DNA of 64,000 nucleotides from Acrocarpospora corrugata (GTDB lineage: Bacteria; Actinomycetota; Actinomycetes; Streptosporangiales; Streptosporangiaceae). This document shows positions 46,964 to 64,000 of this stretch, one piece after another. Numbering within the stretch: position 1 is the first letter of the stretch; each line of letters opens with the position of its first letter. The notes beneath the pieces were generated by a model. It had not been told where the DNA came from. It did not search any database and saw only the letters and a program-made list of their open reading frames with translations. The stretch is from the NCBI RefSeq assembly GCF_009687845.1, contig NZ_BLAD01000046.1:1-64000 (forward strand), written 5' to 3'. Both the position numbers and the translations under genes were made by a program.

Positions 46964-47312
46964 CGTCCACTCTCACCATGGGTTACCGGCCCTTGCAACC
47001 CTAGCCGCCACTCACCCGATTCCGCCGGAACGTCCACGTCCCGAGACTCGATGTCCCTACTGCATAGGACTTTTGGCCCGATATATCCACAGTTCATCTG
47101 ACGTTTCCGGAAGGGTTGAACCGTTCCCGTCCGTGCCCTTGTGCTCCGGCCAGTTCACGCGATAGAAACGTCTGACAATACTTCAATCCTTGAAACAAGC
47201 CTTGCCACCTGTAAGAGAGCGCTCTCAATGTTCCGGCGATGTCGGCCGCCGGTCGCAGGTTCTCACCCCCCGATTGGCCCCTGCTGCGCCCGCAGCGGAA
47301 AGGACGAACCGT
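46964..47312. other. 349-bp divergent intergenic region between hisE and the secreted beta-helix gene
   Basis: No credible gene is seen here. The sequence is noticeably more AT-rich than the neighbours between about 47040 and 47210 (for example ATACTTCAATCCTTGAAACA). That is where promoters for both directions should lie. It contains the palindrome at 47215-47226 described separately. Confidence 0.6.
47215..47226. promoter_or_regulatory. Perfect 12-bp palindrome, candidate LacI-family operator
   Basis: GAGAGCGCTCTC lies 87 bp upstream of the secreted protein start. The GAGCGCTC core is that of LacI-type sugar repressors of actinomycetes (CebR/CelR class, GGGAGCGCTCCC). It suggests the gene is switched by an oligosaccharide signal. 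Confidence 0.55.
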
Positions 47313-49247: not shown

Positions 49248-50819
49248 TCACGTGCGGATGAACCCCTCGTAGCCACGGGCGGCGACGTCGTCGCACTTGG
49301 CCCGGTAGTTGCCCAGGCCGCCCACGTAGGGCAGGAACACCCTCGGCTTGCCGGGGATGTTCGCGCCGGAGTACCAGCTCTCGGACTTGGCGTAGAGGGT
49401 GAACTCGGCCATTTCCCTGACGTGCTCCATCCAGGCCGCCTCGGCCCCGGCTCCGGCTTCGATCACGGCTCGCGGGCCGAGGTCGCGCCGCAGGTCGCCG
49501 AGGCAGGCGGCGATCCACTCCACATGCTGCTCGATCGAGACGATCATGTTGGTGAGCACGGAAGGGCTGCCGGGGCCGGTGATGGTGAACAGGTTGGGGA
49601 ACCCGGCGCTCATCAGGCCCAGGTAGCTGCCCGGCCCGGCCGCCCACGCGTCCCGCAGGCTCAGCCCGTCCCGGCCCCGGATGTCCATGGCCAGCAGGGC
49701 TCCGGTGATGGCGTCGTAACCGGTGGCGAAGACGATGACCTCGGCCTCGTGCGCGGCCTCGGCGGTGCGGATCCCGGTGGGAACGACCTCCGTGACGGGA
49801 AGATCCACCAGGGTGACGTTGGGGCGGTTGTAGGTCGGGTAGTAGCCGGTGTCCAGGCACAGTCGTTTGAGCCCGATGGGGTAGCCGGTGGGGATCAGGC
49901 GTTCGGCCGTCGCCGGGTCGGTCACCAGGGCGCGGATCTTGTCCCGGACGAAGTCGGCGGCCAGCTGGTTGGCCTCCTCCGTCAGCAGGAGATCGTAGAA
50001 GCCGGCCAGGAAGCCGACTCCGCCCTGGGTCCACCTGCGCTCGAACTCGGCCTGGCGCTCCTGCGGGCTCACGTCGAAGGCCGACCGGTCGCCGTACTCG
50101 ATCAGGAATCCGCCGGGTGAGGTCCGGGCCCGCCCCCGGTTGTCGTGGAACCAGCGTTCCTGGGCCGGGTCCAGGGGTCCGTTGACCGCCGGGGTGCTGA
50201 AGCTGGGCGTGCGCTGGAACACCGTCAGGTGGGCGGCCTGTTCGGCGATGGCCGGAATGACCTGGATACCGGAGGAGCCCGTGCCCACCACGGCGACCCG
50301 CTTGCCGGTGAAGTCGACGCCCTCGTGGGGCCAGCGGCCGGTGTGGTGCCAGTGGCCGTCGAAGGTGTCCAGGCCGGGCAGGCCGGGCACGTTGGCCGCG
50401 GACAGGCAGCCGACGGCGGTGATCAGGTATGTCGCGCGCAGGACGTCGCCGTCGTCGGTGGTCACCGTCCAGCGGCCGTCGTCGTAGCCGGCGGCCGTCA
50501 CCCGCGTGCCGAACCGGATGTCCTCGATCAGGTTCAGCCGGTCGGCGACGTACCTGGCGTAGCGCAGGATTTCCGGTTGGGCGGCGTAACGCTCGCTCCA
50601 ACTCCACTCCCGGGTGATTTCTGGAGAGAAGGAGTAGGAGTACTCCAGGCTCTGCACGTCGCAGCGAGCGCCGGGGTACCGGTTCCAGTACCAGGTTCCT
50701 CCCACGTCCTCGCCGGCTTCCACGACGAGGGCCGTGAAGCCGAGGGCGCGCAGCCGGTGCAGCATGTACATCCCGGCGAATCCAGCGCCGATGACGATCG
50801 TGTCGAACTCGCGCGGCAA
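49248..50819 (-). CDS. Flavin-containing Baeyer-Villiger-type monooxygenase
   Basis: Type I BVMOs insert oxygen next to a ketone using FAD and NADPH. The FAD loop is GAGFAG (residues 11-16). The fingerprint FxGxxxHxxxWP is at 153-164 (FDGHWHHTGRWP) and the NADPH loop is GTGSSG (179-184). GTWYWNRYPGARCDVQS is the usual cyclohexanone-monooxygenase-like segment. The TTG start at 50819 is preferred (523 residues): GGAGG lies 8 bases upstream and relatives begin just here. A GTG at 50864 would add 15 residues. The gene diverges from the biosynthetic operon, sharing a 173-bp control region with half-site repeats, so it may be a tailoring enzyme of that pathway. Confidence 0.88.
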   Translation of the reverse strand: MPREFDTIVIGAGFAGMYMLHRLRALGFTALVVEAGEDVGGTWYWNRYPGARCDVQSLEYSYSFSPEITREWSWSERYAAQPEILRYARYVADRLNLIEDIRFGTRVTAAGYDDGRWTVTTDDGDVLRATYLITAVGCLSAANVPGLPGLDTFDGHWHHTGRWPHEGVDFTGKRVAVVGTGSSGIQVIPAIAEQAAHLTVFQRTPSFSTPAVNGPLDPAQERWFHDNRGRARTSPGGFLIEYGDRSAFDVSPQERQAEFERRWTQGGVGFLAGFYDLLLTEEANQLAADFVRDKIRALVTDPATAERLIPTGYPIGLKRLCLDTGYYPTYNRPNVTLVDLPVTEVVPTGIRTAEAAHEAEVIVFATGYDAITGALLAMDIRGRDGLSLRDAWAAGPGSYLGLMSAGFPNLFTITGPGSPSVLTNMIVSIEQHVEWIAACLGDLRRDLGPRAVIEAGAGAEAAWMEHVREMAEFTLYAKSESWYSGANIPGKPRVFLPYVGGLGNYRAKCDDVAARGYEGFIRT

Positions 50820-50880
50820 GGAAGCATCCTCCAACGAAAGCGGGCGGGGGGATGAATCTCGCACCGCGCCCTGGAACGCG

Positions 50881-50992: not shown

Positions 50993-51730
50993 ATGCTGGA
51001 GAAGATAGTAGAGGGCGATCTTCCGCCGGTCATAGTGGTGGATTTCGCCATGTTCTCCGTCGCCGACACGATGACCGGCCTGATGGGTGTTCCGGGGTCG
51101 GGACGGGCGGTCTACCGCGTCGACGCCGTACAGGACCTGGAGATTCACGGTGCCCTGAGCATCGCCGAGCTGGCCGCCCTGTACGCCGGGGAGATCGGGA
51201 AGCTGGCGAGCCCGCCCGCCGCCGTGCTCGGCTACTGCAGCGCGGCGACGCTGGCGCTGGCGCTGGCGGACCGGCTCGGGGAGCGGCCCGAGGTGATCCT
51301 GGTCGAGCCGACCTGGCTCACCACCGACATGATCGGCCAGGAGCTGGCGAACCTGCGCGCGGGGCTCGGCACGAGCGGCGAACCGCCCGCCGAGATCTCC
51401 CCCGCCTCCGTGCTCGGCACGCTCACCGGCGACCTCACCGGGAAGCTCGCGGCCGAGGGCATGTCCGAGGCCGAGGTGGAGACCTGCGTCTCGATGCTGA
51501 CCCTGCGGTACGACGCCTGGTTCGGTTTCCTCTTCGCGACCGAGAAGGCGGCCGTCCCGATGCCCGTGACGCCGGTCTCGCTCGTCGTCGGCGGTGACAG
51601 CGACCGGGGACCTGCTCCGGGGTGGACGGCGGCCCAGTGCTCGCCCGTCCGCGTGGAGGTGCCGTCGGGCGAGTTGCTGCGGAGCCCGGCGGCCCGCCAG
51701 AAGATCTTCCAGCTGATTGACCGGGCATGA
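50993..51730 (+). CDS. Thioesterase-like alpha/beta hydrolase lacking the normal catalytic triad
   Basis: First gene of the biosynthetic operon; ATG 50993 has GGGAGG 8 bases upstream. The 245-residue protein follows the layout of NRPS/PKS thioesterase domains. An N-terminal strand lies near VIVVDF, the elbow is GYCSAATLALALA (80-92) with Cys82 in place of the usual Ser, and the late segment is PVSLVVGGDSDRGPAPGW. The expected final His motif (GxHF) is replaced by VEVPSGELLRSP with no His. It may be an inactive binding protein, a Cys-dependent acyltransferase, or a scaffold. It overlaps the active type II thioesterase gene by ATGA. Confidence 0.7.
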   Translation: MLEKIVEGDLPPVIVVDFAMFSVADTMTGLMGVPGSGRAVYRVDAVQDLEIHGALSIAELAALYAGEIGKLASPPAAVLGYCSAATLALALADRLGERPEVILVEPTWLTTDMIGQELANLRAGLGTSGEPPAEISPASVLGTLTGDLTGKLAAEGMSEAEVETCVSMLTLRYDAWFGFLFATEKAAVPMPVTPVSLVVGGDSDRGPAPGWTAAQCSPVRVEVPSGELLRSPAARQKIFQLIDRA

Positions 51731-52431
51731 CCGCGCGGGTCTACTGCTTCGCGCACGCCGGGGGCTCGGCCGGGGAGTTCCGCGAGTGGGCCGGCCTGGC
51801 GGAGAACGTGCGGATCGCCGGCGTGGAGCGGCCGGGACGCGGCACCAGGTTCGCGGAACCGGCCTTGACCGAGCTGACGGCCCTGGTCGCCGAGCAGGCG
51901 GACTCCCTGGCGCTGGACCTGCCCTTCGGCCTGTTCGGCCACAGCTTCGGCGCGCTGCTCGTCTTCGAGATCGCGCACACGCTGCGCGCTCGCGGACTCA
52001 GGACGCCCGACTGGCTGTGGGTGTCCTCCTTTCCCAGCCCGGACCTCGCCAGGCGGGAGCCGGACGCGCGGCAGCTGCCGGACGCCGACCTGCTGCGCAC
52101 CCTGCACCGGCGGCATGACGCGATTCCCGCCGAGGTGCTGGACAACCCTGAACTGCTCGAAATCGTGGCGGCCTACATGCGGGCCGACTACACGGCCATG
52201 GAGACCCACGGCTTCCGGGACCGCGAACCGCTGCCCTGCGACCTGCGCGTGCTGAGCGGCGCGGACGAGCACGACCTGCACGACCGGCTGGCCGGCTGGG
52301 AGAAGCACGTCACCGGCGCGTTCTCCATGGATTTCCTTCCGGGTGGACATTTCTACCTGCGCGACCCGGACAACAGGCACCACATCGTGCAGGCGATGAA
52401 CGGCATTTGGACTCCGGGGGTGGAGCGATGA
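51727..52431 (+). CDS. Type II thioesterase (GrsT/TEII family)
   Basis: Stand-alone thioesterases clear wrongly loaded acyl or aminoacyl groups from carrier proteins of NRPS/PKS lines. The 234-residue protein starts ARVYCFAHAGGSAGEFREW, the TEII hallmark, followed by GVERPGRGTRF. It has an intact triad: S73 in FGHSFGALL, D180 in LSGADEHD and H208 in FLPGGHFYL. Both ends overlap neighbours by 4 bp (ATGA), so it is made together with the synthases. Confidence 0.92.
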   Translation: MTARVYCFAHAGGSAGEFREWAGLAENVRIAGVERPGRGTRFAEPALTELTALVAEQADSLALDLPFGLFGHSFGALLVFEIAHTLRARGLRTPDWLWVSSFPSPDLARREPDARQLPDADLLRTLHRRHDAIPAEVLDNPELLEIVAAYMRADYTAMETHGFRDREPLPCDLRVLSGADEHDLHDRLAGWEKHVTGAFSMDFLPGGHFYLRDPDNRHHIVQAMNGIWTPGVER

Positions 52432-54236
52432 AGGAATTGTCGACGTGGGGGCCCGAGGTGGACGCCGAAGCCTCGGTGGGCGAGCTGATCGTCAAGGCGG
52501 GCGCCGACTTCTCCGGTCTGCCCGCGGTCCGGGATGTGGGTCGCGGCCTGACCCTGACCTACGCGCAGCTTCTCGGCCAGGTCGAGGCGCAGGCCGGTCG
52601 GCTGCTGGCCGCCGGGGTCGGGGCCGGCGACCACGTGGTCGTGGCGGTGCCGCGCTCGGTGGAGGAGATCGTCGCCGTCCTCGCCGTACTCAGCGTGGGC
52701 GCCGTCTACGTCCCCGTGGACGGCACGCTTCCGGCCGCGCGACTCACCTCGATGCTGGACAGGGTACGGCCGAAGGCCGTGATCGGTGACTTCGCCTCGG
52801 CCCGCGCCGTCGTCCGGGCGGCCCCCGCCCCGTGCGCGCCCGTCCAGCCGATCACCGTCACCGACGGGCCCGCCACCGGATCCGCCCGGGTGTGGGCACA
52901 CCGGGACCCCGGCGACATCGCGTACATCACGTTCACCTCGGGCTCGACCGGCGTGCCGAAGGCCGTTCGTATTCCGCACCGAGGGGTCGTCCGCCTGGTA
53001 CGCGGCGCCGGCTACCTGCGGACGGGGCCAGGCGAGCGAATCCTGCGGCTGGCCCCGCTGTCCTTCGACGCCTCGACGCTGGAGATCTTCTGCGCGCTGG
53101 CCACCGGCGCGACGGTGGAGGTCTACCCCGACGGGCCGGTCTCGCCGGGCGAGCTGGCCGCGTTCCTGCGCGAGGCCGGGGTGACCGTCGCGTTCCTGAC
53201 CGCGGGGCTCTTCCGGGTCGTGGCGGGCGAGGCGATCGAGGGGTTCGCGGGCGTCCGGCAGGTGTTCACCGGCGGCGACGTCGTGCCCGCCGACGCGGTC
53301 CGCGCCCTGCTGGCCCGCCATCCGGGACTGACCGTCGTCAGCGCGTACGGGCCGACGGAGAACACCACCTTCTCCACCGTGCATCCCATGACGAGCCCGG
53401 CCGAGGTGGAAACGCCGGTGCCGATCGGCCGGCCGATCGCGGGCACGTCCGCCCTGGTTCTCGGCGAGGACGGCGAGCCGGTCGGGCCGGGCAGGACCGG
53501 CGAGCTGTGTCTCGGCGGCAGCGGACTGGCGGTGGACTACCTGGGCGCGCCGGAGGAGACCGCGCGGGCGTTCGTGGTCCCCGGGGGGCAGCGGGAGCGT
53601 TTCTACCGGACCGGCGACCTGGTGCACTGGGACACGAGCGGGCGGCTGCACTTCGACGGCCGGCTGGACCGCCAGGTGAAGGTGCGCGGCTACCGGATCG
53701 AGCTCGCCGAGATCGAGGACCGGCTGGGCCGGCGCGAGGAGGTGCGGGACGTCGCCGTCGTGGTGGTGGGCGCGGACGCCGGGTCCAAACGGCTGCTCGC
53801 CGCGGTCGTGGCGGACTCGGCGGACGGCCTGGTGGCCCGCCTGCGGGACGAGCTCCGCCGGGAGCTGCCGCATTACATGGTGCCGCCGCTCTGGGTGGTG
53901 ACCGACCGCCTGCCGTACACCTCGAACGGCAAGGTGGACGTCGCCGAGCTCGAACGGCGGGTCACAGCCCCCGCGAGCGATCACGAACCGGCCCTTCCCC
54001 ACGGCGAGAGGGAGTTCGAGGACGTCATCGCGGGCGTCTGGACCGAGGTGCTCGGCACCGCCGACTTCGGCGTCCGGGATCCCTTCTTCGAGGTCGGCGG
54101 GGACTCGCTGCTGGCCGGTCGGGTGCACGCGCGGCTGCGCACGAAGCTGCCCGGTCATCCGCTCCGCATCGTGGACATCTTCCAGTACCCGACCGTCCAG
54201 GAGCTGGCGGAGCACCTGAGAGGAGCGAACCGATGA
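52428..54236 (+). CDS. NRPS adenylation-peptidyl carrier protein (A-PCP), no condensation domain
   Basis: The 602-residue protein loads an amino or related acid onto its own carrier. A domain motifs: A3 YITFTSGSTGVPKAV (166-180), A5 SAYGPTENTTF, A7 YRTGDLVHW, A8 GRLDRQVKVRGYRIE, A10 with K502 (TSNGKVD). The carrier has S560 in DPFFEVGGDSLLAGR. Aligning to GrsA by hand, I read the ten-residue specificity code as D-A-L-F-F-G-A-T-F-K. That is closest to codes for Ile/Val-like aliphatic residues, but no exact match is claimed. With no C domain it acts as an initiation or trans-loading module. Confidence 0.92.
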   Translation: MKELSTWGPEVDAEASVGELIVKAGADFSGLPAVRDVGRGLTLTYAQLLGQVEAQAGRLLAAGVGAGDHVVVAVPRSVEEIVAVLAVLSVGAVYVPVDGTLPAARLTSMLDRVRPKAVIGDFASARAVVRAAPAPCAPVQPITVTDGPATGSARVWAHRDPGDIAYITFTSGSTGVPKAVRIPHRGVVRLVRGAGYLRTGPGERILRLAPLSFDASTLEIFCALATGATVEVYPDGPVSPGELAAFLREAGVTVAFLTAGLFRVVAGEAIEGFAGVRQVFTGGDVVPADAVRALLARHPGLTVVSAYGPTENTTFSTVHPMTSPAEVETPVPIGRPIAGTSALVLGEDGEPVGPGRTGELCLGGSGLAVDYLGAPEETARAFVVPGGQRERFYRTGDLVHWDTSGRLHFDGRLDRQVKVRGYRIELAEIEDRLGRREEVRDVAVVVVGADAGSKRLLAAVVADSADGLVARLRDELRRELPHYMVPPLWVVTDRLPYTSNGKVDVAELERRVTAPASDHEPALPHGEREFEDVIAGVWTEVLGTADFGVRDPFFEVGGDSLLAGRVHARLRTKLPGHPLRIVDIFQYPTVQELAEHLRGANR

Positions 54237-57076
54237 GCGTCGCGATCATCGGGTTCGGGCTGCGCCTGCCCGGCGCCGAGACGGCCGCCCAGTTCTGGGA
54301 CAACATCGCCGCCGGCCGGGAGTGCCTCACCCGGCTGGACCCCGAGCCCGATCCGGCCTACGTGCCGGTGCGGGGGATCATCCCGGGCGTCGAGGACTTC
54401 GACGCCGGCCTCTTCGGCATGCCGCCACGCGAGGCCCAGTTCACCGATCCCCAGCAGCGGCTGTTCCTAGAGTGCGCCCTGGAAGCTCTGGAGCAGGCCG
54501 GATACACCCAGGACACGGCTCCGGGCCCGATCGGCGTGTTCGCGGGCACGGGCAAGAACCACTACCTGGCGCGCAACGTGGCCGGGCACCCCGACCTCAT
54601 CCGCAACCTGGGCGAGATGATGACGCTGGTGGGCCACGAGAAGGACCACGTGGCGACGCGCACGGCCTACCGCCTGGGTCTGCGCGGCCCCGCCATCGCC
54701 ATGCAGACGTCCTGCTCGACCTCCCTGGTGGCCGTGCACATGGCGGCGCAGAGCCTGCTCCGGCACGAGGCGGACCTGATGCTCGCCGGCGGCGCCTCGA
54801 TCGCGCTGCCCCAGGAGTCCGGTTACCGCTACAGCCCGCACGACATCCTGTCGCCGGACGGGCGCTGCCGGGCCTTCGCGAAGGACGCCGGGGGCGCGGT
54901 GCCGGGCAACGGGGTCGGCGTCGTGGTGCTGAAGCGGCTGGGCGACGCCGTCCGCGACCGGGACACGATCTACGCGGTGATCAAGGGTTCCGCGATCAAC
55001 AACGACGGCGGGCGCAAGGTCGGCTACACCGCCCCGAGCGTGCGCGGGCAGGCGGACGTCATCCGCGCCGCGCACACCGCGGCGGGCGTGACCCCCGGCA
55101 CCATCCAGTACGTCGAGACCCACGGCACCGGCACCGAACTCGGCGACCGCATCGAAGTCGAGGCTTTGACCCACGCGTTCGGCCCCGGCGACCCGGGCTC
55201 GTGCGCGCTCGGCACGCTCAAGCCGAACATCGGGCACGTGGACATCGCCGCCGGAGTCGCCGGGCTGATCAAGGCCTCGCTCGCCCTGTACCACGGCCAG
55301 CTCCCGCCGAGCATCAACTGCGAGCAGGAGGACCCCGACCTCAACCTCCACCAGAGCCCCTTCTACATCAACCGCACGCTGCGGCCCTGGCCCGCGACGG
55401 ACACGCCGCGCCGGGGTTCGGTGAGCGCGTTCGGCGTCGGCGGAACCAACGCGCACGTCGTGCTCGAACAGGCTCCCCCGGCCGACGACAGCCGGCCCGC
55501 GCCCGACCTGCCGGTCATCGTCCCCCTTTCCGCGCACACCCCGCACGCCCTGAACCAGCTCACCGACCGGCTGGCCGAGCACGCGCGCTCCCGTCCGGAG
55601 ACCGACGTCCGCGACGTCGCGCACACCCTGCGGCACGGCCGCGAACCGCGCGAACACCGCTCGGCCGCCGTCGTGCACGGCACCGCCGAACTCGCCACGC
55701 CCTCGGCGTTCGGGCCGCCGACGCCCAGCCGGAGCCTGGTCAGCGTCGGCTACCTCTTCACCGGCCAGGGCAACCAGCACCCCGGGATGGCCACCGGCCT
55801 GTACGACCGGTTCCCCGTCTTCCGCGCGGCCATGGACGAGTGCGCCAGGGAGTTCTCCGTCAGCACCGGCACCGACATCCGCTGGCTGCTGTGCGACACC
55901 CCCGACGACCCCGCCGCCGCCCAGGCCGCGCTCGACGGCATGTCCCTCGCCCAGCCGTCCGTCTTCGCGATGGAGTACGCGACCGCGAAACTGCTGCTCT
56001 CGACCGGCCTGCGGCCCAAGGCGTTGCTGGGGCACAGCCTCGGCGAGTACGCGGCGGCGTGCGTCGCCGGCGCGATGAGCCTGGCGGACGCGGCGGCGCT
56101 GGTCGGGGCGCGCGGCCGGCTGCTGGACCGGGTGCGCGGCGGGGCGATGCTGGCGGTCTTCGCCGCGGCGGAGACCGTCGTCCCACTGCTGCCCGCGTCC
56201 CTGTCGCTGGCCGCGGTCAACGCGCCCCGCTCGATCGTGGTGACCGGCCGGGCCGACGCGATGCCCGGCCTGGTCGAGCGGCTCGACGCGCTCGGCATCG
56301 GGCACCGCAGGGTTCCGGTGCCGATCGCGGCGCACTCCGCGATGCTGGACGGCCTGCTGGAGGAGTTCCGCGCGCATGCCGAGCGGCTCACCTACCACCC
56401 GGCGGCGATCCCGATGATCTCCGGGGTCACCGGGCGTCCGGTCGATCGCGTCGACGCGGACTACTGGACCCGGCATCTGCGCCAGACCGTCAGGTTCGCC
56501 GACGCGGTCGAGCATTTCCTGCAGCGGCAGCACCCGGTGCTGATCGAGGTGGGGCCGGGACGCACGCTCACGAACCTGGTGCACGAGACGGCGGCCGGGC
56601 GGCCGGTGGTGGCGCTGGCCGCGCTGCCGGGGCGCAAGGACGAGGCGGGGTCGCTGGCGACGCTGCTGGAGGCCGTCGCCGGGGCGTGGTGCGCCGGAGC
56701 CCCGGTGGACTGGTCCGCGCTCGACGCCGATCCGTACGCGCGGCGTGTGCCGCTGCCCTCGTACCCGTTCCAGCGTGAGCGGCACTGGCTCGACACGGAA
56801 CCGGCCGCGCCCCCCGAGGCTCCCGCCGGGAAGGAACCCGGCCTCCCGGCGGAGCGGGAGATCGCGGTGATCTGGCGGGATCTGCTCGGCGTGGCCGAGG
56901 TCGGCCCCGACGACAACTTCTTCGCGCTCGGCGGCCAGTCCCTCCTCCTGGTCCGCATGATCGCCAGGCTCAAGGAGCTGACCGGCGTCGCCATCCCCCT
57001 GCGGGACGCGGTCGCGGCCCCGACCGTACGGGGGATCGCGGCGGTTCTCGCGCACCACGGAAGAGAGCGCGCATGA
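54233..57076 (+). CDS. Type I polyketide synthase module, KS-AT-ACP
   Basis: A 947-residue minimal module. KS (1-415): C161 in TSCSTSLVA, H297 in VETHGTGTELGD, H335 in KPNIGHVD. AT (about 505-855): S602 in GHSLGEYAAA; the specificity box reads IAAH (698-701), neither HAFH (malonyl) nor YASH (methylmalonyl). ACP (about 870-945): S903 in FFALGGQSLLLV. There is no KR, DH or ER, so the extended unit stays a beta-keto group, which a neighbouring oxidoreductase or condensing enzyme could use. ETHGTGTELGDRIE is typical of KS domains in NRPS-PKS hybrids. Overlaps A-PCP and ATP-grasp genes by 4 bp each. Confidence 0.93.
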   Translation: MSVAIIGFGLRLPGAETAAQFWDNIAAGRECLTRLDPEPDPAYVPVRGIIPGVEDFDAGLFGMPPREAQFTDPQQRLFLECALEALEQAGYTQDTAPGPIGVFAGTGKNHYLARNVAGHPDLIRNLGEMMTLVGHEKDHVATRTAYRLGLRGPAIAMQTSCSTSLVAVHMAAQSLLRHEADLMLAGGASIALPQESGYRYSPHDILSPDGRCRAFAKDAGGAVPGNGVGVVVLKRLGDAVRDRDTIYAVIKGSAINNDGGRKVGYTAPSVRGQADVIRAAHTAAGVTPGTIQYVETHGTGTELGDRIEVEALTHAFGPGDPGSCALGTLKPNIGHVDIAAGVAGLIKASLALYHGQLPPSINCEQEDPDLNLHQSPFYINRTLRPWPATDTPRRGSVSAFGVGGTNAHVVLEQAPPADDSRPAPDLPVIVPLSAHTPHALNQLTDRLAEHARSRPETDVRDVAHTLRHGREPREHRSAAVVHGTAELATPSAFGPPTPSRSLVSVGYLFTGQGNQHPGMATGLYDRFPVFRAAMDECAREFSVSTGTDIRWLLCDTPDDPAAAQAALDGMSLAQPSVFAMEYATAKLLLSTGLRPKALLGHSLGEYAAACVAGAMSLADAAALVGARGRLLDRVRGGAMLAVFAAAETVVPLLPASLSLAAVNAPRSIVVTGRADAMPGLVERLDALGIGHRRVPVPIAAHSAMLDGLLEEFRAHAERLTYHPAAIPMISGVTGRPVDRVDADYWTRHLRQTVRFADAVEHFLQRQHPVLIEVGPGRTLTNLVHETAAGRPVVALAALPGRKDEAGSLATLLEAVAGAWCAGAPVDWSALDADPYARRVPLPSYPFQRERHWLDTEPAAPPEAPAGKEPGLPAEREIAVIWRDLLGVAEVGPDDNFFALGGQSLLLVRMIARLKELTGVAIPLRDAVAAPTVRGIAAVLAHHGRERA

Positions 57077-58326
57077 CCAGGCTCGCGGTCGTCTTCGGCG
57101 CAGGCGCGGTGGCCCTCGGCGACCTGCTGGTCGGCCTGCGCTTCTGCCCCGACCTGCTCTTCGTCCTGCCCGCAGGCCCGCAGAGCGCGCAGTACGCGGC
57201 CCTGCTTGAGTCGGCGGGCGCCGTCCTCACCCTCACCGGGGACGCGGACGCCGACACCGGCGCCTTCCGCGCGGCGGCGGCGACGGGCGTGGTGACCTTC
57301 AGCGAGGTCGAACTGCCCGTCGCGGCCAGGCTCGCCGCCTCAGCCGGACTTCCGTTCCACAGTCCGGAAACCGTCGAACGGCTCACCGACAAGCACGCCC
57401 AGCGACGGGCGATGCGCGAACACGGCATCGAGACCCCCGCGTCGTGGCTGCTGCGCGGCGCGGACGAGTGGCCCCCAGACCTCCGCCTGCCCGCCGTGCT
57501 GAAGCCGGTCAGAGGGGAGGGCAGCCGCAACACCTACCTGGTGCGGACCGAGGACGAGGGGATCGCCCTGGCCGGGCGGCTGCTCGCGCTGGAGGAGGCG
57601 CTGGTCGTCGAAGAGTGCCTCGTCGGCGTCCCGAGCGAGCCGTTCGGCGACTACGTCTCGGTGGAGAGCGCCTGCGCGGGCGGCCGGATCCAGACCATCG
57701 GCGTCACGGGGAAGCTGCCGCTGCTGCCGCCGTTCAGGGAGAACGGGCAGTTCTTCCCGGACGCGCTGGACGACGCCGTGCGCGCGGAGGTGATCGAGCT
57801 GACCGGGCGGACCCTGCGAGCCCTCGGCGTACGGCACGGAATCACCCACACCGAAATCAAGATCACCGAGCAGGGGCCCAGGGTCATCGAGGTCAACGGG
57901 CGCATCGGCGGGTTCATCAACGAGCTGTACCTGCGGGCCACCGGGCTGGACCTGATCGAGCTGGCCGGCCGGCTCGCGCTCGGGGAGGACCTGGAGGTGT
58001 CCGCGCGGCCCCTCGCCGGGGTGTTCTTCCAGCAGTACGCCCGGCCGCCGCGCGAGGCGACCCGCCTCACCGCGATCGAGGGGGCCCGCACGCTCACCAG
58101 GACGCCGGGGATCACCGCGCGCCGCCAGCTCGTCCAGCCGGGCACCGAGCTGCCGGGCGACGGCAAGGCCGTCTACCTCGATCTGGTCGTCGGCGACGCG
58201 CCGTCGCATCGGGAGATGCTCGCCGTCCTGGACCGGGGTCTGCGCGGGATCAGATTCACCTTCGACACTCCTTCCGGACCTCTCACCCGGGGCGGCGACG
58301 AACTGCGCGCCGGAGTCCCCGCATGA
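57073..58326 (+). CDS. ATP-grasp ligase (BacD-like amino acid/peptide ligase family)
   Basis: ATP-grasp enzymes activate a carboxylate as acyl-phosphate and join it to an amine or other nucleophile. The 417-residue protein has a pre-ATP domain (1-105, VERLTDKHAQRRAMREHGIE), the ATP-lid KPVRGEGSRNTYLV (K144) and metal ligands in HTEIKITEQG (E261) and VIEVNGRIGG (E273, N275). A C-terminal domain follows. The EVNxRxGG motif is that of dipeptide and amino acid ligases. It could form the amide between the line's product and a second unit. ATGA overlaps on both sides. Confidence 0.88.
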   Translation: MTRLAVVFGAGAVALGDLLVGLRFCPDLLFVLPAGPQSAQYAALLESAGAVLTLTGDADADTGAFRAAAATGVVTFSEVELPVAARLAASAGLPFHSPETVERLTDKHAQRRAMREHGIETPASWLLRGADEWPPDLRLPAVLKPVRGEGSRNTYLVRTEDEGIALAGRLLALEEALVVEECLVGVPSEPFGDYVSVESACAGGRIQTIGVTGKLPLLPPFRENGQFFPDALDDAVRAEVIELTGRTLRALGVRHGITHTEIKITEQGPRVIEVNGRIGGFINELYLRATGLDLIELAGRLALGEDLEVSARPLAGVFFQQYARPPREATRLTAIEGARTLTRTPGITARRQLVQPGTELPGDGKAVYLDLVVGDAPSHREMLAVLDRGLRGIRFTFDTPSGPLTRGGDELRAGVPA

Positions 58327-59258
58327 GGCCGGGGGTCGCGGTCGTCGGTTACGGCAACGCCGGACGCCAGCACCTCGACGCGCTGGGCGATCGCTCGTAC
58401 GCCGTGGTGGAGCAGGATCCGCGGGCCGCCGCGCGGGCACGGGCGGCCGGGCTGCCGGTGCGCGAACTGGACGACGTGCTGGCGGACGACGCCATCCAGG
58501 CACTGGCGCTCTGCCTGCCGCCGGGCGTCCGTGCCGGTATCGCGGCGAAGGCCGTGGCGGCGGGCAAACATCTGCTGCTGGAGAAGCCGCCCGCGCGCAC
58601 GCCGGAAGAACTAGCCGCACTGCTCTCGCTCGCCGACGCCGGTGGAGTACTGGCGGCGGTGATGTTCCAGCACCGCTTCGCTCTTCCGGGCGAACTGCGT
58701 TCCGCGGACGCGGCCCGGTTCGCCGGGGCCGTGGCGAGCCTCACCGTCTCGCGGGCGCGTCCCGACGCGCACTACCAGACGTCCGGTTGGCGTTCCGACC
58801 CGCGCGACGCGCTCGGCGGCGTCACGGCTCACCTCGGGGTGCACTACCTCGACCTGGCGTGCCAGCTCCTCGGAACGCCGCGGGCGGTGACGCCGCTGTC
58901 CAGGACCGACGCGGTGCCGGGCATCGACACCCAGGTGTGCGGGCACATCGCGTTCGAATCCGGCGCGCAGTTGTCGGTAGCGGTCACCAGCCGGTCGCCC
59001 GCACGGTTCGAGCAGCTCACGGTGCTGGGCGCCGACACCTGGCTGGAAGTGCGGTCGGGCGCGGTCACCGGCGAGATCGACGGAAGGCCGATCACCAGAG
59101 CAGCCAGTCCGGCCTCCCGGTTGCGTACCGAGGTCTATCAGGAGCTCTTCAGCGCCATGGCAGGTCGCGCGGATCTCGACCTGGCCGCGCTGCGCCGCAG
59201 CCACGGAGTGGTGAAGGCGCTCGACGGCCTGCTCAACCCTCTGGAGGTGGGTCGATGA
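58323..59258 (+). CDS. Gfo/Idh/MocA-family NAD(P)-dependent oxidoreductase
   Basis: The 311-residue protein has a Rossmann N-terminus (AVVGYGNAGRQHLDALG, residues 4-20), the family EKP motif (HLLLEKPPARTPEEL) and the substrate-domain motif GGVTAHLGVHYLDLACQLLG with the catalytic-region His. Members oxidise or reduce sugars, inositols and sugar-like ketones. Followed directly by two TIM-barrel proteins of the IolE/IolI fold, it recalls inositol-type chemistry. ATGA overlaps on both sides. Confidence 0.88.
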   Translation: MRPGVAVVGYGNAGRQHLDALGDRSYAVVEQDPRAAARARAAGLPVRELDDVLADDAIQALALCLPPGVRAGIAAKAVAAGKHLLLEKPPARTPEELAALLSLADAGGVLAAVMFQHRFALPGELRSADAARFAGAVASLTVSRARPDAHYQTSGWRSDPRDALGGVTAHLGVHYLDLACQLLGTPRAVTPLSRTDAVPGIDTQVCGHIAFESGAQLSVAVTSRSPARFEQLTVLGADTWLEVRSGAVTGEIDGRPITRAASPASRLRTEVYQELFSAMAGRADLDLAALRRSHGVVKALDGLLNPLEVGR

Positions 59259-59968
59259 TCGGCTTTCCGGCCATCGGGCTCAGCTCGGGAACGCTGCCCC
59301 AAGCCACGGCAGCGGAACTCGCCGACGCCGTCCTCGCGTATGGCGGTTCCGGCGTGGATCTGCGGATCGGCAAGGACCAGCGGTGGGAGCGGGACGGCGT
59401 CGCCGAGGCGTTAAGCCACTTCGCCGCCAACGGACTCGACGTCTTCTACACCGGCGTCGGATGGCGGCTCGGCACTCCCGCGCCACTGCCCGAGGCTCCC
59501 CCCGAGTGGCCGGTGAAGGTCTTCTGCGTCGAAACGCCCGACCTTCAGCTGGTCGCCGACCAGGTGGCCGCCGCGTCGGAGGCCGGGCTGGAGCTCTGGG
59601 TCGAGACCCACGCCGGAGGCCCGGCGGTGCGCGGCCTGATCGACCTCGCCGGGCGTACCGGCGTGGGGATCGTGCTCGACGTCCTCGGTCTCGGCGAGAT
59701 CGGCGGCGCGGACCGCCACGAACTGGCCGACCTCGCCCCGCACGTCCGCGCGGCCCAGGTCAAGGGCGTCCTGCGGACACCCGCGGGGGTACGGCACCGC
59801 CCGCTGTCGCCACCCGACCTCGACCCCGTCCTGTCCGTCCTGGCAGGTTCCGCACTGCGGTGCGTGACGGTGGAGTCCCGGGCGGGCGCCCCGGCAGCCG
59901 ACCTGGCCGTGCTCGCCCGCGCCCTGGCACCCGCACGTGCCCGCGAGAAAGAAGAGAACCGCTCATGA
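59255..59968 (+). CDS. Xylose isomerase-like TIM-barrel protein, first of a pair
   Basis: The 237-residue protein matches the AP endonuclease family 2/xylose isomerase-like TIM barrel: GLSSGTLPQATAAELADAVL, then a strand-helix pattern through VKVFCVETPDLQLVADQVAA, LELWVETHAGGPAVRGLIDL, GIVLDVLGLGEIGG and AAQVKGVLR. Some expected metal ligands are hard to place (WVETHA holds a Glu and His, VLDVLG an Asp). It is shorter than the next protein and only distantly like it. It may be a partner or a divergent isomerase. ATGA overlaps on both sides. Confidence 0.78.
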   Translation: MIGFPAIGLSSGTLPQATAAELADAVLAYGGSGVDLRIGKDQRWERDGVAEALSHFAANGLDVFYTGVGWRLGTPAPLPEAPPEWPVKVFCVETPDLQLVADQVAAASEAGLELWVETHAGGPAVRGLIDLAGRTGVGIVLDVLGLGEIGGADRHELADLAPHVRAAQVKGVLRTPAGVRHRPLSPPDLDPVLSVLAGSALRCVTVESRAGAPAADLAVLARALAPARAREKEENRS

Positions 59969-60810
59969 AACTGGCAGTGATCGGCGACGAGCTGGCCCAG
60001 GACTGCCGGGTGGTCGCGGAGACCGCCGCAGAGCTCGGGTTCGACGGCGTGGAGATCAGATCGATCGACGGCACGCCGCCGCACCTGCTCACCGACGACC
60101 AGCTCGTGGCAGCGCGCGCGATCCTCGGCGAACACGGGCTGGCGAACGCCGGATTCACGCCGCCCGCGCTCAAGGTCGCGCTGCCCGAGACCGACGACGA
60201 TCTGCGGGCGGCGGCCGACCTGCTGGTGGACGCCTGTCGCCGGGCGGCGCTGCTCGGCGCGCCGCACGTGCGGATCTTCAGCTTCTACCGGGACGGCGAC
60301 CCCGACCCCGTCCGGGCCGCGCGCGTGGCCGCCCGCGTCCTGGACGGCGCCCGGCTGCCGGTCCCGCTCGTGGTGGAGAACGGCACCAGGACCAACACGC
60401 CGACGCTGCGGCACGTCAGGACCTTCCTCGACGAACTCGGCCGCGACGACGTCGGCGTGCTGTGGGATCCGGGCAACAGCGTCTTCAGCGGCTGGGATCC
60501 CGACCCCTTCCCCGCCGACTACGAGGCGGGCCGCGAACTCATCCGCCATGTGCACGTGAAGGATCCCGACGCCGGCCGCGGCTACGTCCGGCTCGGCGAC
60601 GGCGATTTGGACTGGCCGGCCATCCTGCTGCGGCTGGCGGAGGACGGTTACGACGGTTACGTCAGCTTGGAAACTCACTGGCGGCAGGGCCGGCAGCTGA
60701 CCGCCGACGAGCGCGACAACCCGTGGGGCGAGGAGTTCTCGCGCGGCGCGTACGTGGCCAGCGTGGCGTGCATGGTCAAGCTGCGCGGCTGGCGGGACGA
60801 ACTGGCGTGA
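59965..60810 (+). CDS. Xylose isomerase-like TIM-barrel isomerase/epimerase, second of a pair
   Basis: The 281-residue protein is a full TIM-barrel isomerase of the IolE/IolI/hydroxypyruvate-isomerase-like group: KLAVIGDELAQDCRVVAETA, GFDGVEIRSIDGT, VPLVVENGTRTNTPTLRHV (metal Glu), VGVLWDPGNSVFSGWDP (Asp), RHVHVKDPDAGRGYVRLGDG (His, Asp) and DGYVSLETHWRQG (Glu). The metal set appears complete, so it is likely active on a keto-sugar, inosose or similar polyol. It follows its shorter relative by ATGA overlap. Confidence 0.85.
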   Translation: MKLAVIGDELAQDCRVVAETAAELGFDGVEIRSIDGTPPHLLTDDQLVAARAILGEHGLANAGFTPPALKVALPETDDDLRAAADLLVDACRRAALLGAPHVRIFSFYRDGDPDPVRAARVAARVLDGARLPVPLVVENGTRTNTPTLRHVRTFLDELGRDDVGVLWDPGNSVFSGWDPDPFPADYEAGRELIRHVHVKDPDAGRGYVRLGDGDLDWPAILLRLAEDGYDGYVSLETHWRQGRQLTADERDNPWGEEFSRGAYVASVACMVKLRGWRDELA

Positions 60811-61595
60811 CCATCTCCGGATCCTCGCCGCTGATCCTGCTCGGCGCGCAGCGCTCGGGCACCACCGCCCTGGCCACGGTGCTCGACAGCGCGTACGCCG
60901 CCGCGGGCGGCCTGTTCACCGTCAACGGGAAGTTGCCCTACGTGCTGCACCGCTGGTGTTCCCAGGCGGACCTGCCGGCCCGGCATCTGCGCGTCGACGA
61001 GATGCTGCACGCGCTGCGCCGCAGGCCGCCGTACGGGCCGAGGGGCGAACGGTGGCTGGCGGCGGTGGAGCGCGAGCTCCGCGCGGCGGCGGCCGAAGTC
61101 GCCGCCGGGGCCGTCCTGGACGCGGTGGAGTTGCGGCGGGACCTCGTGCGGCGGGCCTACGCGGGAGCGACCCGGTTCGGCGACAAGTACAACGAGTACC
61201 TCCTGGAGCTCGACCAGCTCGCCGAGACCCTGCCGGACGCCCGCTGGGCGCTGCTGGTCCGCCACCCGGCGGCCGTGGCGGCCTCGGCGCTGCGCTGGCC
61301 GGGCGACCGCCCGTGGCGTCCGGAGACCCGGGCGGCCGCGCTGGACAAATGGGCCGCCTGGCACGAGCCCTGGCTGCGGCACGAACGCACCCGCGATCCC
61401 GGCCGCTGCATCGTGCTCGAATACGGGCGGTTGTGCGCGGGCCGGGACCTCGCGCGGCTCTCCGGGGCCGTGGACCTCGATCTGGCCCCTTTCGCGGGCC
61501 CGCTCACCGAACGGCCACCGCCGCCCGCGCCGGACGAACTGCCGCCCAGGATCGACCGGATCTGGCAGGCCCTGCTCGACCGCGCGACGCGATGA
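60807..61595 (+). CDS. Sulfotransferase-like P-loop protein
   Basis: The GTG at 60807 overlaps the previous stop. The 262-residue protein has a PAPS-type loop LILLGAQRSGTTALATVLD (near residues 9-27) and a second region RWALLVRHPAAVAASALRWP resembling the 3'-phosphate site. The rest matches Sulfotransfer_3-like proteins. It could sulfate a hydroxyl of the product. Its stop overlaps a tiny 11-codon frame, not the next large gene, the only break in the chain of overlaps. Confidence 0.8.
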   Translation: MTISGSSPLILLGAQRSGTTALATVLDSAYAAAGGLFTVNGKLPYVLHRWCSQADLPARHLRVDEMLHALRRRPPYGPRGERWLAAVERELRAAAAEVAAGAVLDAVELRRDLVRRAYAGATRFGDKYNEYLLELDQLAETLPDARWALLVRHPAAVAASALRWPGDRPWRPETRAAALDKWAAWHEPWLRHERTRDPGRCIVLEYGRLCAGRDLARLSGAVDLDLAPFAGPLTERPPPPAPDELPPRIDRIWQALLDRATR

Positions 61596-61627
61596 CCATC
61601 CCCACCCTGACGAAAGGCATTTCCTGA
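61592..61627 (+). CDS. 11-codon ORF filling the only gap in the overlap chain
   Basis: ATG at 61592 overlaps the sulfotransferase TGA (ATGA) and reads MTIPTLTKGIS, ending 1 base before the VOC gene start at 61629. It may simply carry ribosomes across the gap (reinitiation), be a remnant of the old VOC start, or be chance. GAAAGG inside it could serve as the VOC ribosome site. Confidence 0.35.
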   Translation: MTIPTLTKGIS

Positions 61628-61628
61628 A

Positions 61629-62051
61629 ATGAACGAGCGCCGCCAGGCCCTGCCGTACCAGACCACGGAGGCCGCCTCCACCTTCGGGCTCGGCCTTCAT
61701 CACGTGCAGCTCGCCCTGCCCCCGGGCGAGGAGGAGCTGTGCCGCCGCTTCTACGTGGACGTGCTCGGCATGACCGAGATCCAGAAGCCTCCCGTGCTCG
61801 CCGCCCGGGGCGGTCTGTGGGTACGCGCCGACCACCTGGAGATCCATCTGGGCGTCGAGGAGGACTTCCGGCCGGCCCGCAAGGCGCACCCCGGCATCCT
61901 CGTGGCCGACCTCGACGCCCTCGCCGAGCGGCTGGCCTCCCAGGGGGTCGAGGTCACCTGGGACAACAACTTCCCCGGTCACCGGCGGCTGTACGCAATC
62001 GACTGCCACGAGAACCGGCTGGAGTTCCTCTCCCCCGACGAGAACCCGTGA
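61629..62051 (+). CDS. VOC (glyoxalase/bleomycin resistance/dioxygenase) superfamily protein
   Basis: A 140-residue protein with two beta-alpha-beta-beta-beta units: GLGLHHVQLALPPGEEELCR with the first metal-type His, YVDVLGMTEIQKP, LEIHLGVEEDF with a central His and Glu, and LYAIDCHENRLEFL with the final Glu. Members are glyoxalases, epimerases, dioxygenases or drug-binding self-resistance proteins. In a biosynthetic operon beside an exporter, either product binding (resistance) or a metal-dependent isomerisation is possible. Confidence 0.85.
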   Translation: MNERRQALPYQTTEAASTFGLGLHHVQLALPPGEEELCRRFYVDVLGMTEIQKPPVLAARGGLWVRADHLEIHLGVEEDFRPARKAHPGILVADLDALAERLASQGVEVTWDNNFPGHRRLYAIDCHENRLEFLSPDENP

Positions 62052-63307
62052 GAACCTTCGCCCGCAACTGGATAGGACTGCCCGACGTCCCCGGCGCGCG
62101 CCGCTGGGTGTGGGTGGCGGTGATCGACGCGGTCGGCACGGGCATGCGGATCCCGGTCACCGTCATCTACCTGACCGTGGTCGTCCAGCTGCCCGCCACC
62201 CTGGTGGGCGTCGGCCTCGGGGTCGCGGCCCTGGCGGGAACCGTGTGCGCGCCCGCCGCGGGCGCGCTCATCGACAGGTTCGGCCCCAAACCCGTGGTCA
62301 TCGCCTGCTTCCTGGCCGCGGCGACCGGCTACTTCGGCTATCTCGCGATCGTGGACTGGGTCTCCTTCCTGGTGGTCGCGGTCATCGCCGAGATCGCCGA
62401 GCACAGCGCGCGCCCCGCCAAGCAGGCGCTGGTGGCAAGCATGGTCACCGCCGAGCAGCGGGTGCCGATGATGGCCTTCCAGCGGTCGGTGCGCAATATC
62501 GGGTTCGGCCTCGGCGGGCTGACCAGCGCGGCGCTGCTCACCCTGAACACCGACGCCGGCTACTACGCGGTCCTGGCCGGCGACGCGGTGTCCTTCCTCG
62601 TCGCCGCCGCGCTGGTCACCGGCATCCACGTCGCGCGCAAACCGGCTCCCCCGGCGAAGGACACCGGCGCGCCCGCCGGGTTCCGCGAGGTGCTCGCCGA
62701 CCGCAGGTACGTCGCGCTGGCCGTGCTCAACACCCTGGTCATGACGCACGTCACGGCGCTCAACGTGGGCGTGCCGCTCTGGGTCAGCCAGCACACCTCC
62801 GCCCCGCCCGGCCTGGTGGGAGTGCTGTTCGCGATGAACACGGCGCTGGTCGTGCTGCTCCAGGTCCGGCTGACCAAGGGCGTCTCCCGGGCCGGCCAGA
62901 CGCCCCCGGTGTACGTGCGGGCGGCGGCGGCCTTCGCGCTGGCCGCCGCCGGCTACTGGGCGGCGGCCCTGACCGGGAACACGCTGGCGCTCGTGGTGGT
63001 CCTCCTGGTGGTCGCCGTACTGGCCCACACCGCGGCCGAACTGTACGGCGCGGTCGGCGAGTGGACGGTCTCCGTCAACCTCGCCCCGGAACACCTGCGC
63101 GGGCGCTACCTCTCCCTGTTCTCCATCAGCTTCTCCGCGCACCAGGCGATCGGCCCGGTGCTCGTCATCCTCCTGATCACCCAGGCGCCAGATCTCGCCT
63201 GGTTCGTCCTGGCCGCAGTGCTGGGCGCGGGCTGCCTGGCGAGCGCCTGGCTGGCCCGGGGCGCGCAGGAGCCCGCCGAACCGAAGGAAGCGAACAGCAC
63301 GGCATGA
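62048..63307 (+). CDS. MFS transporter, likely exporter of the cluster product
   Basis: From GTG 62048 (overlapping the VOC stop) there are 419 residues with twelve predicted membrane segments. The conserved loop 2-3 motif reads GALIDRFGPKP, and the N-half contains EHSARPAKQALVASMV, as in MFS drug-efflux proteins of the EntS/MefA-like group. The position between a VOC protein and an NRPS gene makes export and self-protection its probable job. Confidence 0.88.
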   Translation: MRTFARNWIGLPDVPGARRWVWVAVIDAVGTGMRIPVTVIYLTVVVQLPATLVGVGLGVAALAGTVCAPAAGALIDRFGPKPVVIACFLAAATGYFGYLAIVDWVSFLVVAVIAEIAEHSARPAKQALVASMVTAEQRVPMMAFQRSVRNIGFGLGGLTSAALLTLNTDAGYYAVLAGDAVSFLVAAALVTGIHVARKPAPPAKDTGAPAGFREVLADRRYVALAVLNTLVMTHVTALNVGVPLWVSQHTSAPPGLVGVLFAMNTALVVLLQVRLTKGVSRAGQTPPVYVRAAAAFALAAAGYWAAALTGNTLALVVVLLVVAVLAHTAAELYGAVGEWTVSVNLAPEHLRGRYLSLFSISFSAHQAIGPVLVILLITQAPDLAWFVLAAVLGAGCLASAWLARGAQEPAEPKEANSTA

Positions 63308-64000
63308 CCACACTCGATCCCACCCATCCCGCCGCCACCGCCGACCTGCTCGGCGAGGCATGGCAGGCCGCCCTGGGCGCGGCCCCCTCCGGACCCGACG
63401 CGGACTTCTTCGCCGAGGGCGGCGACTCCCTGCTGGCCGTCCGGATGCTGAGCCGGCTGCGGCAGGCCCGCGTCACCGCGACCCCGGCCGACATCCTGCG
63501 CGGGCGCACGTACGGCGGCATTCTGGCCCGGCTCGAAGCCAACCGGGAGGAACCCGCAGTCCCGGCGGGGGAAGCGGGGCCCGGCGCGGTGCCGCTGCTG
63601 GCCGCGCAGCGCCGCTGGACCGCCAAGGGATTCACCGATCCCGACCACTTCTCGCTCGGCTGGATCTTCGAAGTGCCCGAGCGGACACCGCGCGGCCAGA
63701 CGGTGCACAGCGCCGCCGTGGAGGCCGCGGTGCTGGCCCTGGTGCGCAGGCACGAAGCCCTGCGCACCCGCTACCTGCTCGACGGCGAAGGCGGGCCACG
63801 CGCCGAGGTGCTCCCCGGCCCGCCGGACGGCCTGTTCCAGCGGGTGGACGTGCCCGACGACCAGGTGACCGGCGTGCTGCTGGACGGCTGGCGGGCGCAC
63901 CGGCTGGCCGAGGGACGCGTGCTGGCCGCCCGCTGGCTGCCCGCCCAGCGGCTGCTCCAGCTCGCCCTGCACCATCTGACGCTCGACGGCTTCTCCGTCG
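63304..64000 (+). CDS. NRPS protein: PCP followed by condensation domain, cut by the window end
   Basis: ATG 63304 overlaps the MFS stop, and the frame is open to the last base (232 codons visible). The carrier domain is at about 12-80, with S42 in DFFAEGGDSLLAVRM. The condensation domain starts near residue 97: C1-like LLAAQRRW, C2 RHEALRTRY (149-157) and the active-site motif HHLTLDG (223-229), with both His and the Asp-Gly present. The order PCP-C is unusual. It suggests that the carrier is loaded in trans, perhaps by the upstream A-PCP protein, and passes its group to an acceptor bound on the missing part. More synthetase domains are likely to the right. Confidence 0.9.
   Translation, partial: MTTLDPTHPAATADLLGEAWQAALGAAPSGPDADFFAEGGDSLLAVRMLSRLRQARVTATPADILRGRTYGGILARLEANREEPAVPAGEAGPGAVPLLAAQRRWTAKGFTDPDHFSLGWIFEVPERTPRGQTVHSAAVEAAVLALVRRHEALRTRYLLDGEGGPRAEVLPGPPDGLFQRVDVPDDQVTGVLLDGWRAHRLAEGRVLAARWLPAQRLLQLALHHLTLDGFSV

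Follow-up and report, generated by a model that had tools for sequence, protein, structure and literature searches.

Introduction

We know of the module formed by a Gfo/Idh-type dehydrogenase and two TIM-barrel proteins only from the breakdown of sugars. DgpA and DgpB-DgpC, in which a Gfo/Idh protein has a TIM barrel as partner, are likewise breakdown enzymes, and DgpB-C acts on 3-oxo-glucosides. Here, we place such a module in a biosynthetic setting: a gene cluster that begins at position 50993 of a 64,000-nucleotide stretch of DNA from the soil actinomycete Acrocarpospora corrugata (the window; bases 1-64000 of the 187,869-base contig NZ_BLAD01000046.1, genome 9.27 Mb). The cluster combines nonribosomal peptide synthetase (NRPS) and polyketide synthase (PKS) proteins with, e.g., a Gfo/Idh dehydrogenase (g06), two TIM barrels (g07 or TIM1, and g08 or TIM2), a sulfotransferase, a deacetylase and a glycosyltransferase.

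In the levoglucosan (Lgd) pathway, LgdA forms a 3-ketone, LgdB1 carries out an elimination for which Mn is not needed, LgdB2 a Mn-stimulated hydration, and the Gfo/Idh protein LgdC a reduction; LgdB1 and LgdB2 are alike in annotation yet without marked similarity (PMC7676230). The likeness to the present cluster lies in the occurrence at one locus of Gfo/Idh-type dehydrogenases and two dissimilar proteins annotated as sugar isomerases, and in the pairing of a Mn-independent LgdB1 and a Mn-stimulated LgdB2, to be set beside the altered (TIM1) and full (TIM2) putative metal sites found here. However, Lgd is a breakdown pathway, and the text consulted names no glycosyltransferase, deacetylase, sulfotransferase or NRPS (PMC7676230). 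In the YcjQ-YcjR-YcjS system of E. coli, dehydrogenases act on 3-keto-glucosides together with a TIM-barrel epimerase, YcjR, described as a 3-keto-D-glucoside isomerase/epimerase, but the genes form an operon of carbohydrate import and metabolism with a glucoside/guloside pathway (PMC11543891). By analogy, the Gfo/Idh-TIM-TIM module described here may work like the Lgd and Ycj enzymes, without being a member of either group.

In mycothiol and bacillithiol biosynthesis, a glycosyltransferase adds N-acetylglucosamine (GlcNAc), a deacetylase frees the amine, and the amine is aminoacylated. Those pathways use GT4 and PIG-L type enzymes and a Cys ligase, whereas the loci studied here have a GT2 glycosyltransferase, a NodB-type deacetylase, and a condensation (C) domain, an ATP-grasp ligase or a PaaK-like ligase. 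The ascamycin cluster contains a sulfotransferase with genes that form 3´-phosphoadenosine 5´-phosphosulfate (PAPS), as is the case in 5 of the 19 loci compared below, but it makes a nucleoside sulfamate and the available text describes no Gfo/Idh-TIM module (PMC9113183). Bulgecins, from a Burkholderia, were proposed to need NRPS, glycosyltransferase and sulfotransferase components; the gene cluster is not located in that paper, so that this likeness is by description only (PMC5472815).

No cluster matching the gene combination or the product, a link to streptothricin or gulosamine included, appeared in the literature searched, which is weak evidence since the search covered mostly titles and the beginnings of abstracts, and subscription papers thinly. 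The cluster is probably uncharacterised and representative of a family of undescribed sulfated amino-sugar natural products. Orphan clusters are common in general, and the interest of this one lies in the change of acyl parts on a common core and in the biosynthetic Gfo/Idh-TIM-TIM module. The family spans two actinomycete families and offers a ready comparison set, with one core and at least three kinds of acyl part.

Results and Discussion

A conserved core with a probable role in sugar chemistry

The cluster joins a conserved core, which we call the sugar core after its probable chemistry, to an acyl part that can be exchanged and of which at least three kinds are known. This organization emerged from a comparison of 19 loci: the A. 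corrugata locus, nine others from its family (the Streptosporangiaceae), seven from the genus of genome G401, and two on plasmids (WA1-19 and pFRL2). We take the genus of G401 to be Streptomyces because nine cluster proteins of WA1-19 match those of G401 at 65-86 percent. Seventeen of the loci were chosen by TIM1, which is a good marker because it falls into no Pfam or NCBIfam family, and two by TIM2. In overlapping samples, TIM1 had hits in 10 of 297 family genomes (single-protein search, E 1e-10), 3 of 394 genomes at class level (profile search, E 1e-12), 7 of 343 in G401's genus (E 1e-12) and 2 of 396 at phylum level (E 1e-5), the last two being already among the known loci. A search of plasmids with TIM2 returned nine records, four of them from Streptomyces at 56-60 percent identity. 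Three plasmid records were opened; WA1-19 and pFRL2 were compared, and CP040467 (annotation only) and NZ_CP109227 stand outside the comparison.

TIM1 and a VOC-fold protein are present in all 19 loci, and the Gfo/Idh dehydrogenase, TIM2, the sulfotransferase, the NodB deacetylase and the GT2 glycosyltransferase in 18 each. These seven genes occur together in 18 of the 19 loci, in the family of A. corrugata as well as in Streptomyces. The order and strand of the Gfo-TIM1-TIM2 genes are kept in 18 of 18 loci, one of which has a 1.6-kb gap, and the sulfotransferase gene follows TIM2 in 17 of the 18. Less constant are the Ldh2 and MFS genes (16 of 19 loci each), homologues of the adenylation-peptidyl carrier protein (A-PCP) and PCP-C proteins (13), the ATP-grasp gene (12) and the type II thioesterase gene (TEII; 6). 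G099 is the sole locus without the full core and has TIM1 and VOC alone (L032 12428-13162 and the VOC gene after it), either as a remnant or as an independent pair. The VOC gene was dropped as a marker of the family, since 90 of the 394 class-level genomes hold relatives of it (E 1e-15).

All 15 genes of the A. corrugata cluster recur in collinear order in G097, G226 and G156, three genomes from the same family, with proteins 62.6-89.3 percent identical, and so does the convergent Streptomyces antibiotic regulatory protein (SARP) gene in the same place and orientation. The cluster is thus a true conserved unit, larger than described in an earlier reading of the window made from its letters alone (the original prediction), which had expected one syntenic block and proposed loss of synteny in relatives as a refutation; these three genomes show no such loss. 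However, the gene set of that prediction is not one unit throughout: a widespread sugar core is joined in only 4 of the 19 loci to the acyl part seen here. Other genes accompany the core in some loci. The PAPS-forming genes cysC, cysD and cysN lie beside it in the five loci mentioned above, and a UDP-sugar dehydrogenase gene in 10 of 19. The latter is missing from the loci of the A. corrugata type, although five genes of this kind lie elsewhere in the A. corrugata genome, on other contigs.

Three Streptomyces versions are plasmid-borne, namely pcz of WA1-19 (L060), that of the UYFA156 plasmid (L061) and that of pFRL2 (L062), a location that suggests transfer between strains. In pcz, a second large NRPS/PKS gene (L060 27683-32828) is found a few kilobases downstream of the core.

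An exchangeable acyl part

In the A. corrugata type (four loci), the acyl part comprises the A-PCP protein, a ketosynthase-acyltransferase-acyl carrier protein (KS-AT-ACP), an ATP-grasp ligase and the PCP-C protein. G121 and G178 have A-PCP and PCP-C; G201 and six Streptomyces loci have an A-PCP-C protein plus one ATP-grasp gene or two; and G256, G677 and pFRL2 have a PaaK-like ligase. In G191, an AMP-ligase and a carrier protein lie about 4 kb from the core and may not belong to it, and nothing recognisable as an acyl part was seen at the G662 locus. Five core proteins were concatenated for a tree (18 rows, 1392 columns), in which the A. corrugata type forms a single clade with 100/100 support, whereas the PaaK and A-PCP-C types need three changes each; the acyl part has therefore changed on a standing core. 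The branch of G256 in this tree is long, and 3 of the 15 inner branches fall below the support mark of the tool.

The minimal A-PCP, KS-AT-ACP and PCP-C proteins of the original prediction were all recovered, with A, PCP, C, KS, AT and ACP domains that have intact motifs and are encoded in one operon, making this a hybrid NRPS-PKS cluster. An aliphatic amino acid as starter, also anticipated, agrees with the branched-chain-like adenylation code of g03. Nine-letter codes were read by motif, at the GrsA positions. The code is DALFFGATF in A. corrugata, G097 and G226, DALFLGATF in G156 and DALWLGGTF in G121 and G178; these are close to Val/Ile codes. The A-PCP-C proteins have DVEQVGGVT or DVEQVGGIT in Streptomyces and DVEQVGAVT in G201, and second A domains read DIFVIGAVF (G201) and DGLWMGGIF (G121). 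As the codes vary, the predicted amino acid differs by type.

A single KS-AT-ACP protein in which Pfam finds no ketoreductase, dehydratase or enoylreductase domain agrees with the expected one non-reduced ketide extension. The AT motif GHSLG suggests a malonyl unit; the second AT motif, IAAHS, is neither of its usual forms, and malonyl is retained as the probable extender. This KS-AT-ACP is confined to 4 of the 19 loci, a fifth KS-AT match, in WA1-19, being part of a large and separate PKS. The 512-residue g12 ends with its C domain, and the C domain of WA1-19 is in the C-terminal half of an A-PCP-C protein of 1033 residues. A C domain with no module after it suggests a small soluble amine as acceptor. 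The best solved relatives of g05 are the L-amino acid ligases BL00235 (3vot, E 6.9e-18) and BacD (E 2.6e-10), from which we predict amide ligation by an ATP-grasp L-amino acid ligase.

The thioesterase-like g01 is found in 4 of the 19 loci, all of the A. corrugata type, and all four proteins have a Cys motif at the nucleophile elbow and no aligned catalytic His. A Cys-thioesterase route to a monobactam, in which g01 would act with the sulfotransferase (cf. sulfazecin, PMC11298585), was considered and set aside because g01 is restricted to these loci and has no aligned His, and because the sulfotransferase goes along with the core instead.

The Gfo/Idh enzyme and the two TIM barrels

The original prediction listed five non-modular enzymes, four of which are recognised by Pfam. 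The fifth, g07 (TIM1), has no Pfam or NCBIfam match, and a profile search against PDB sequences gave nothing better than E 0.17. Its AlphaFold2 model (mean predicted local distance difference test, pLDDT, 93.5; predicted template modelling score, pTM, 0.90) is a xylose-isomerase-like TIM barrel, so that both g07, by predicted structure, and g08, by Pfam, have the fold of this superfamily. The 50 Foldseek matches listed include PA2260, DgpB-C, UlaE, ketose 3-epimerases and YcjR, with TM-scores of 0.55-0.70 of the query. DgpB-C (7drd) is matched at E 4.9e-8 but has 11 percent identity to TIM1, and YcjR (6wn6) at E 4.4e-6 with 13-14 percent identity. A DgpC-like protein is not among the Pfam matches of the cluster, although no dedicated search was made.

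Active-site motifs are conserved in all three proteins. The EKP motif of g06 is invariant in 18 of 18 aligned sequences, as are the putative metal ligands E138, D168, H197 and E236 of TIM2. In TIM1, E117, D142, Q168 and E207 are kept across 18 loci, with Gln where TIM2 has its His ligand. Membership of named subfamilies is a different matter: g06 scores 36.7 of 650 bits with the levoglucosan dehydrogenase model NF052479 and 39 of 355 with IolG, and g08 scores 23.8 of 290 with IolE, so that neither protein belongs to any of these. Among PDB entries, g06 matches 3q2k best (E 4.3e-16), an entry labelled as an oxidoreductase only; we take it to be WlbA, a UDP-N-acetylglucosaminuronic acid (UDP-GlcNAcA) 3-dehydrogenase. 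Weak matches to DgpA were also obtained (9m37, E 1.1e-6; 7xr9, E 1.7e-5).

Sulfotransferase, deacetylase, glycosyltransferase and Ldh2

The suggestion that the product is sulfated has gained indirect support from the PAPS-type sulfotransferase profile of g09, the QRxGTT loop for the 5´-phosphosulfate, which is invariant in 18 of 18 aligned sequences, and the cysC, cysD and cysN genes. The search of g09 against PDB sequences gave no match at E 0.01. For the deacetylase g14, the only solved relative found was a poly-GlcNAc deacetylase (5bu6, E 1.7e-7), and in the glycosyltransferase g15 the FLDDD motif is invariant in 18 of 18 aligned sequences. The NodB gene is kept in 18 of the 19 loci irrespective of the acyl part. 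Because it stays across acyl parts and resembles a poly-GlcNAc deacetylase, the amine freed by this enzyme is the natural candidate for the acceptor. An amine acceptor as originally predicted is retained, but it is better read as an amino sugar freed by NodB than as a cyclitol amine.

The Ldh2 protein g13 has an ABC-ATPase-like N-terminal extension. ABC_tran was matched in 4 of 6 members scanned, the A. corrugata protein not among them, and relatives occur in L026, L028, L030 and L036. By eye, the extension is present in 14 of the 16 Ldh2 loci (it is lacking in pFRL2 and G677), with a Walker A motif in three (G121, G178 and G201). We know of no function for Ldh2 fused to such an extension. A structure model of the fusion (mean pLDDT 62.5) was not used.

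A proposed pathway and its alternatives

The reading that we favour, to which we give about an even chance, is that the cluster makes a sulfated amino sugar whose acyl group is a branched-chain amino acid extended once. Gene content, synteny, the exchange of acyl genes on a common core, the predicted fold of g07 and the conserved active-site motifs are what we observe; every substrate, the order of the steps and the exact keto-sugar reaction are what we infer. The GT2 enzyme would transfer a GlcNAc-type sugar to an acceptor, and NodB would free the amine of the transferred sugar. The Gfo/Idh enzyme would then oxidise a ring hydroxyl, most likely at C3, to a ketone, which the two TIM barrels could exploit for epimerisation, or for elimination followed by re-addition, at adjacent carbons ahead of a final reduction back, and the PAPS sulfotransferase would sulfate the product of these keto-sugar steps. 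Ldh2 may reduce a 2-oxo acid or an imine. On the acyl side, g03 would load the branched-chain amino acid and g04 extend it by one unreduced, probably malonyl, unit. The terminal C domain of g12 would release the chain onto the amine freed by NodB, which would make a thioesterase domain for chain termination unnecessary. With an amino acid as partner, g05 may form another amide; g11 would serve in export and SARP in control. One improbable extension of this pathway is that the core performs a biosynthetic oxidation-elimination-addition on a 3-keto sugar, with TIM1 catalysing the elimination and TIM2 the addition of some nucleophile that is not water. The result would be a rearranged sulfated amino sugar made by no known pathway, a scaffold that actinomycetes would diversify by swapping acyl-loading genes.

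Several points weigh against the acylated, sulfated amino sugar. Because g06 and g08 fall well short of the cut-offs for the named subfamilies, oxidation at C3 is proposed by analogy only. The TM-scores of TIM1 given above are moderate among the 50 matches listed, and the His-to-Gln comparison of TIM1 and TIM2 comes from a weak profile alignment (probability 0.4 percent), though the fold supports it. The presence of TIM1 and TIM2 is not independent evidence, most loci having been chosen by one or the other. Ldh2 and MFS are absent from 3 of the 19 loci, and the VOC protein, from a common family, is given no role. The donor sugar may differ between types, as the A. corrugata type is without a UDP-sugar dehydrogenase. 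Finally, the transfer of the g04 product to the C domain beside the PCP of g12 lacks an explanation.

Other products can be derived from the same genes. Enzymes acting on inositol in the manner of IolG, IolE and IolI, followed by addition of GlcNAc by GT2 and deacetylation by NodB, would lead to a mycothiol-like glucosamine-cyclitol that is then acylated and sulfated. Transfer, deacetylation and aminoacylation follow the logic of mycothiol, and IolG and IolE are the best named subfamilies for g06 and g08, though weak; but the scores above exclude membership, the UDP-sugar dehydrogenases in 10 of the 19 loci point to a nucleotide sugar acid, and none of the 50 TIM1 structure matches listed is named IolE or IolI. 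We therefore consider the cyclitol route unlikely. The same UDP-sugar dehydrogenases, together with the match of g06 to 3q2k, presumably WlbA, are in line with another route, in which g06 resembles the UDP-GlcNAcA 3-dehydrogenase and the TIM barrels modify a nucleotide sugar before its transfer by GT2. An aminotransferase and a nucleoside diphosphate (NDP)-sugar 2-epimerase are parts of the WlbA pathway, but neither is among the Pfam matches of the A. corrugata cluster, nor do loci of its type have the dehydrogenase, and this route appears doubtful to a similar degree. Far less probable is that the core makes or modifies a cell-surface glycan and has the NRPS/PKS genes as a separate neighbour. 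GT2, NodB, UDP-sugar dehydrogenase and sulfotransferase genes are usual in capsule loci, but the A. corrugata cluster has a single glycosyltransferase, 4-base overlaps join its NRPS/PKS genes and core in one operon, and A and C domains lie beside the core in 13 of the 19 loci.

Gene organization and borders of the locus

The gene chain runs past the end of the window to contig position 67815 and consists of 15 genes, all on the forward strand, plus the SARP gene (Table 1). The open reading frames, coordinates and domain calls of the original prediction for 50993-64000 were reproduced by open reading frame and Pfam analysis, and its gene list stands, except that the VOC and MFS genes within this span had gone unnamed. 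Extending the contig to the right completed the PCP-C gene and added those for Ldh2, NodB, GT2 and SARP.

Table 1. Genes of the A. corrugata cluster. Positions are those of the contig, which coincide with those of the window up to 64000.
Gene	Product	Position	Strand	Basis
g01	Thioesterase-like, Cys at nucleophile elbow, no aligned catalytic His	50993..51730	+	Pfam Thioesterase weak, below cut-off
g02	Type II thioesterase (TEII)	51727..52431	+	Pfam Thioesterase, 125 bits
g03	A-PCP, predicted branched-chain amino acid	52428..54236	+	Pfam AMP-binding, AMP-binding_C, PP-binding; code DALFFGATF
g04	KS-AT-ACP without reductive domain	54233..57076	+	Pfam domains; KS Cys, AT GHSLG, ACP GGQSL motifs
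g05	ATP-grasp amide ligase (predicted)	57073..58326	+	PDB matches BL00235 (3vot) and BacD
g06	Gfo/Idh/MocA sugar dehydrogenase (core)	58323..59258	+	Pfam GFO_IDH_MocA
g07	TIM1, divergent xylose-isomerase-like TIM barrel (core, family signature)	59255..59968	+	AlphaFold2 model, Foldseek
g08	TIM2, xylose-isomerase-like TIM barrel, full putative metal-ligand set (core)	59965..60810	+	Pfam AP_endonuc_2
g09	PAPS-type sulfotransferase (core)	60807..61595	+	Pfam Sulfotransfer_3, 67.8 bits
g10	VOC/glyoxalase-fold protein (core)	61629..62051	+	Pfam Glyoxalase
g11	MFS exporter (predicted)	62048..63307	+	Pfam MFS_1
g12	PCP-C	63304..64842 (window cuts at 64000)	+	Pfam PP-binding, Condensation; HHxxxDG intact
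g13	Ldh2 with ABC-like N-terminus	64839..66248	+	Pfam Ldh_2
g14	NodB-type deacetylase	66233..66982	+	Polysacc_deac_1
g15	GT2 glycosyltransferase	66931..67815	+	Glycos_transf_2
SARP	SARP regulator, convergent	67768..69789	-	BTAD, Trans_reg_C, NB-ARC

The predicted chaining of genes by ATGA/GTGA overlaps extends over most of the cluster, with an exact 4-base overlap at 11 of the 14 junctions and, at the remaining three, one 33-base gap and overlaps of 16 and 52 bases. As a rough control only, such an overlap was seen in 1 of 17 pairs of adjacent genes on the same strand in the rest of the window, picked by hand from the output of a crude GC-frame gene caller. Within the stretches fetched, the flanking genes are rarely shared with other loci: hisG, metX, metY and OsmC neighbours, the 47190-49202 protein and the 70033-71181 flavoprotein are found at the A. 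corrugata locus only (1 of 19), and the 49248-50864 monooxygenase in 2 of 19. We therefore take the cluster to be 50993-67815 plus SARP.

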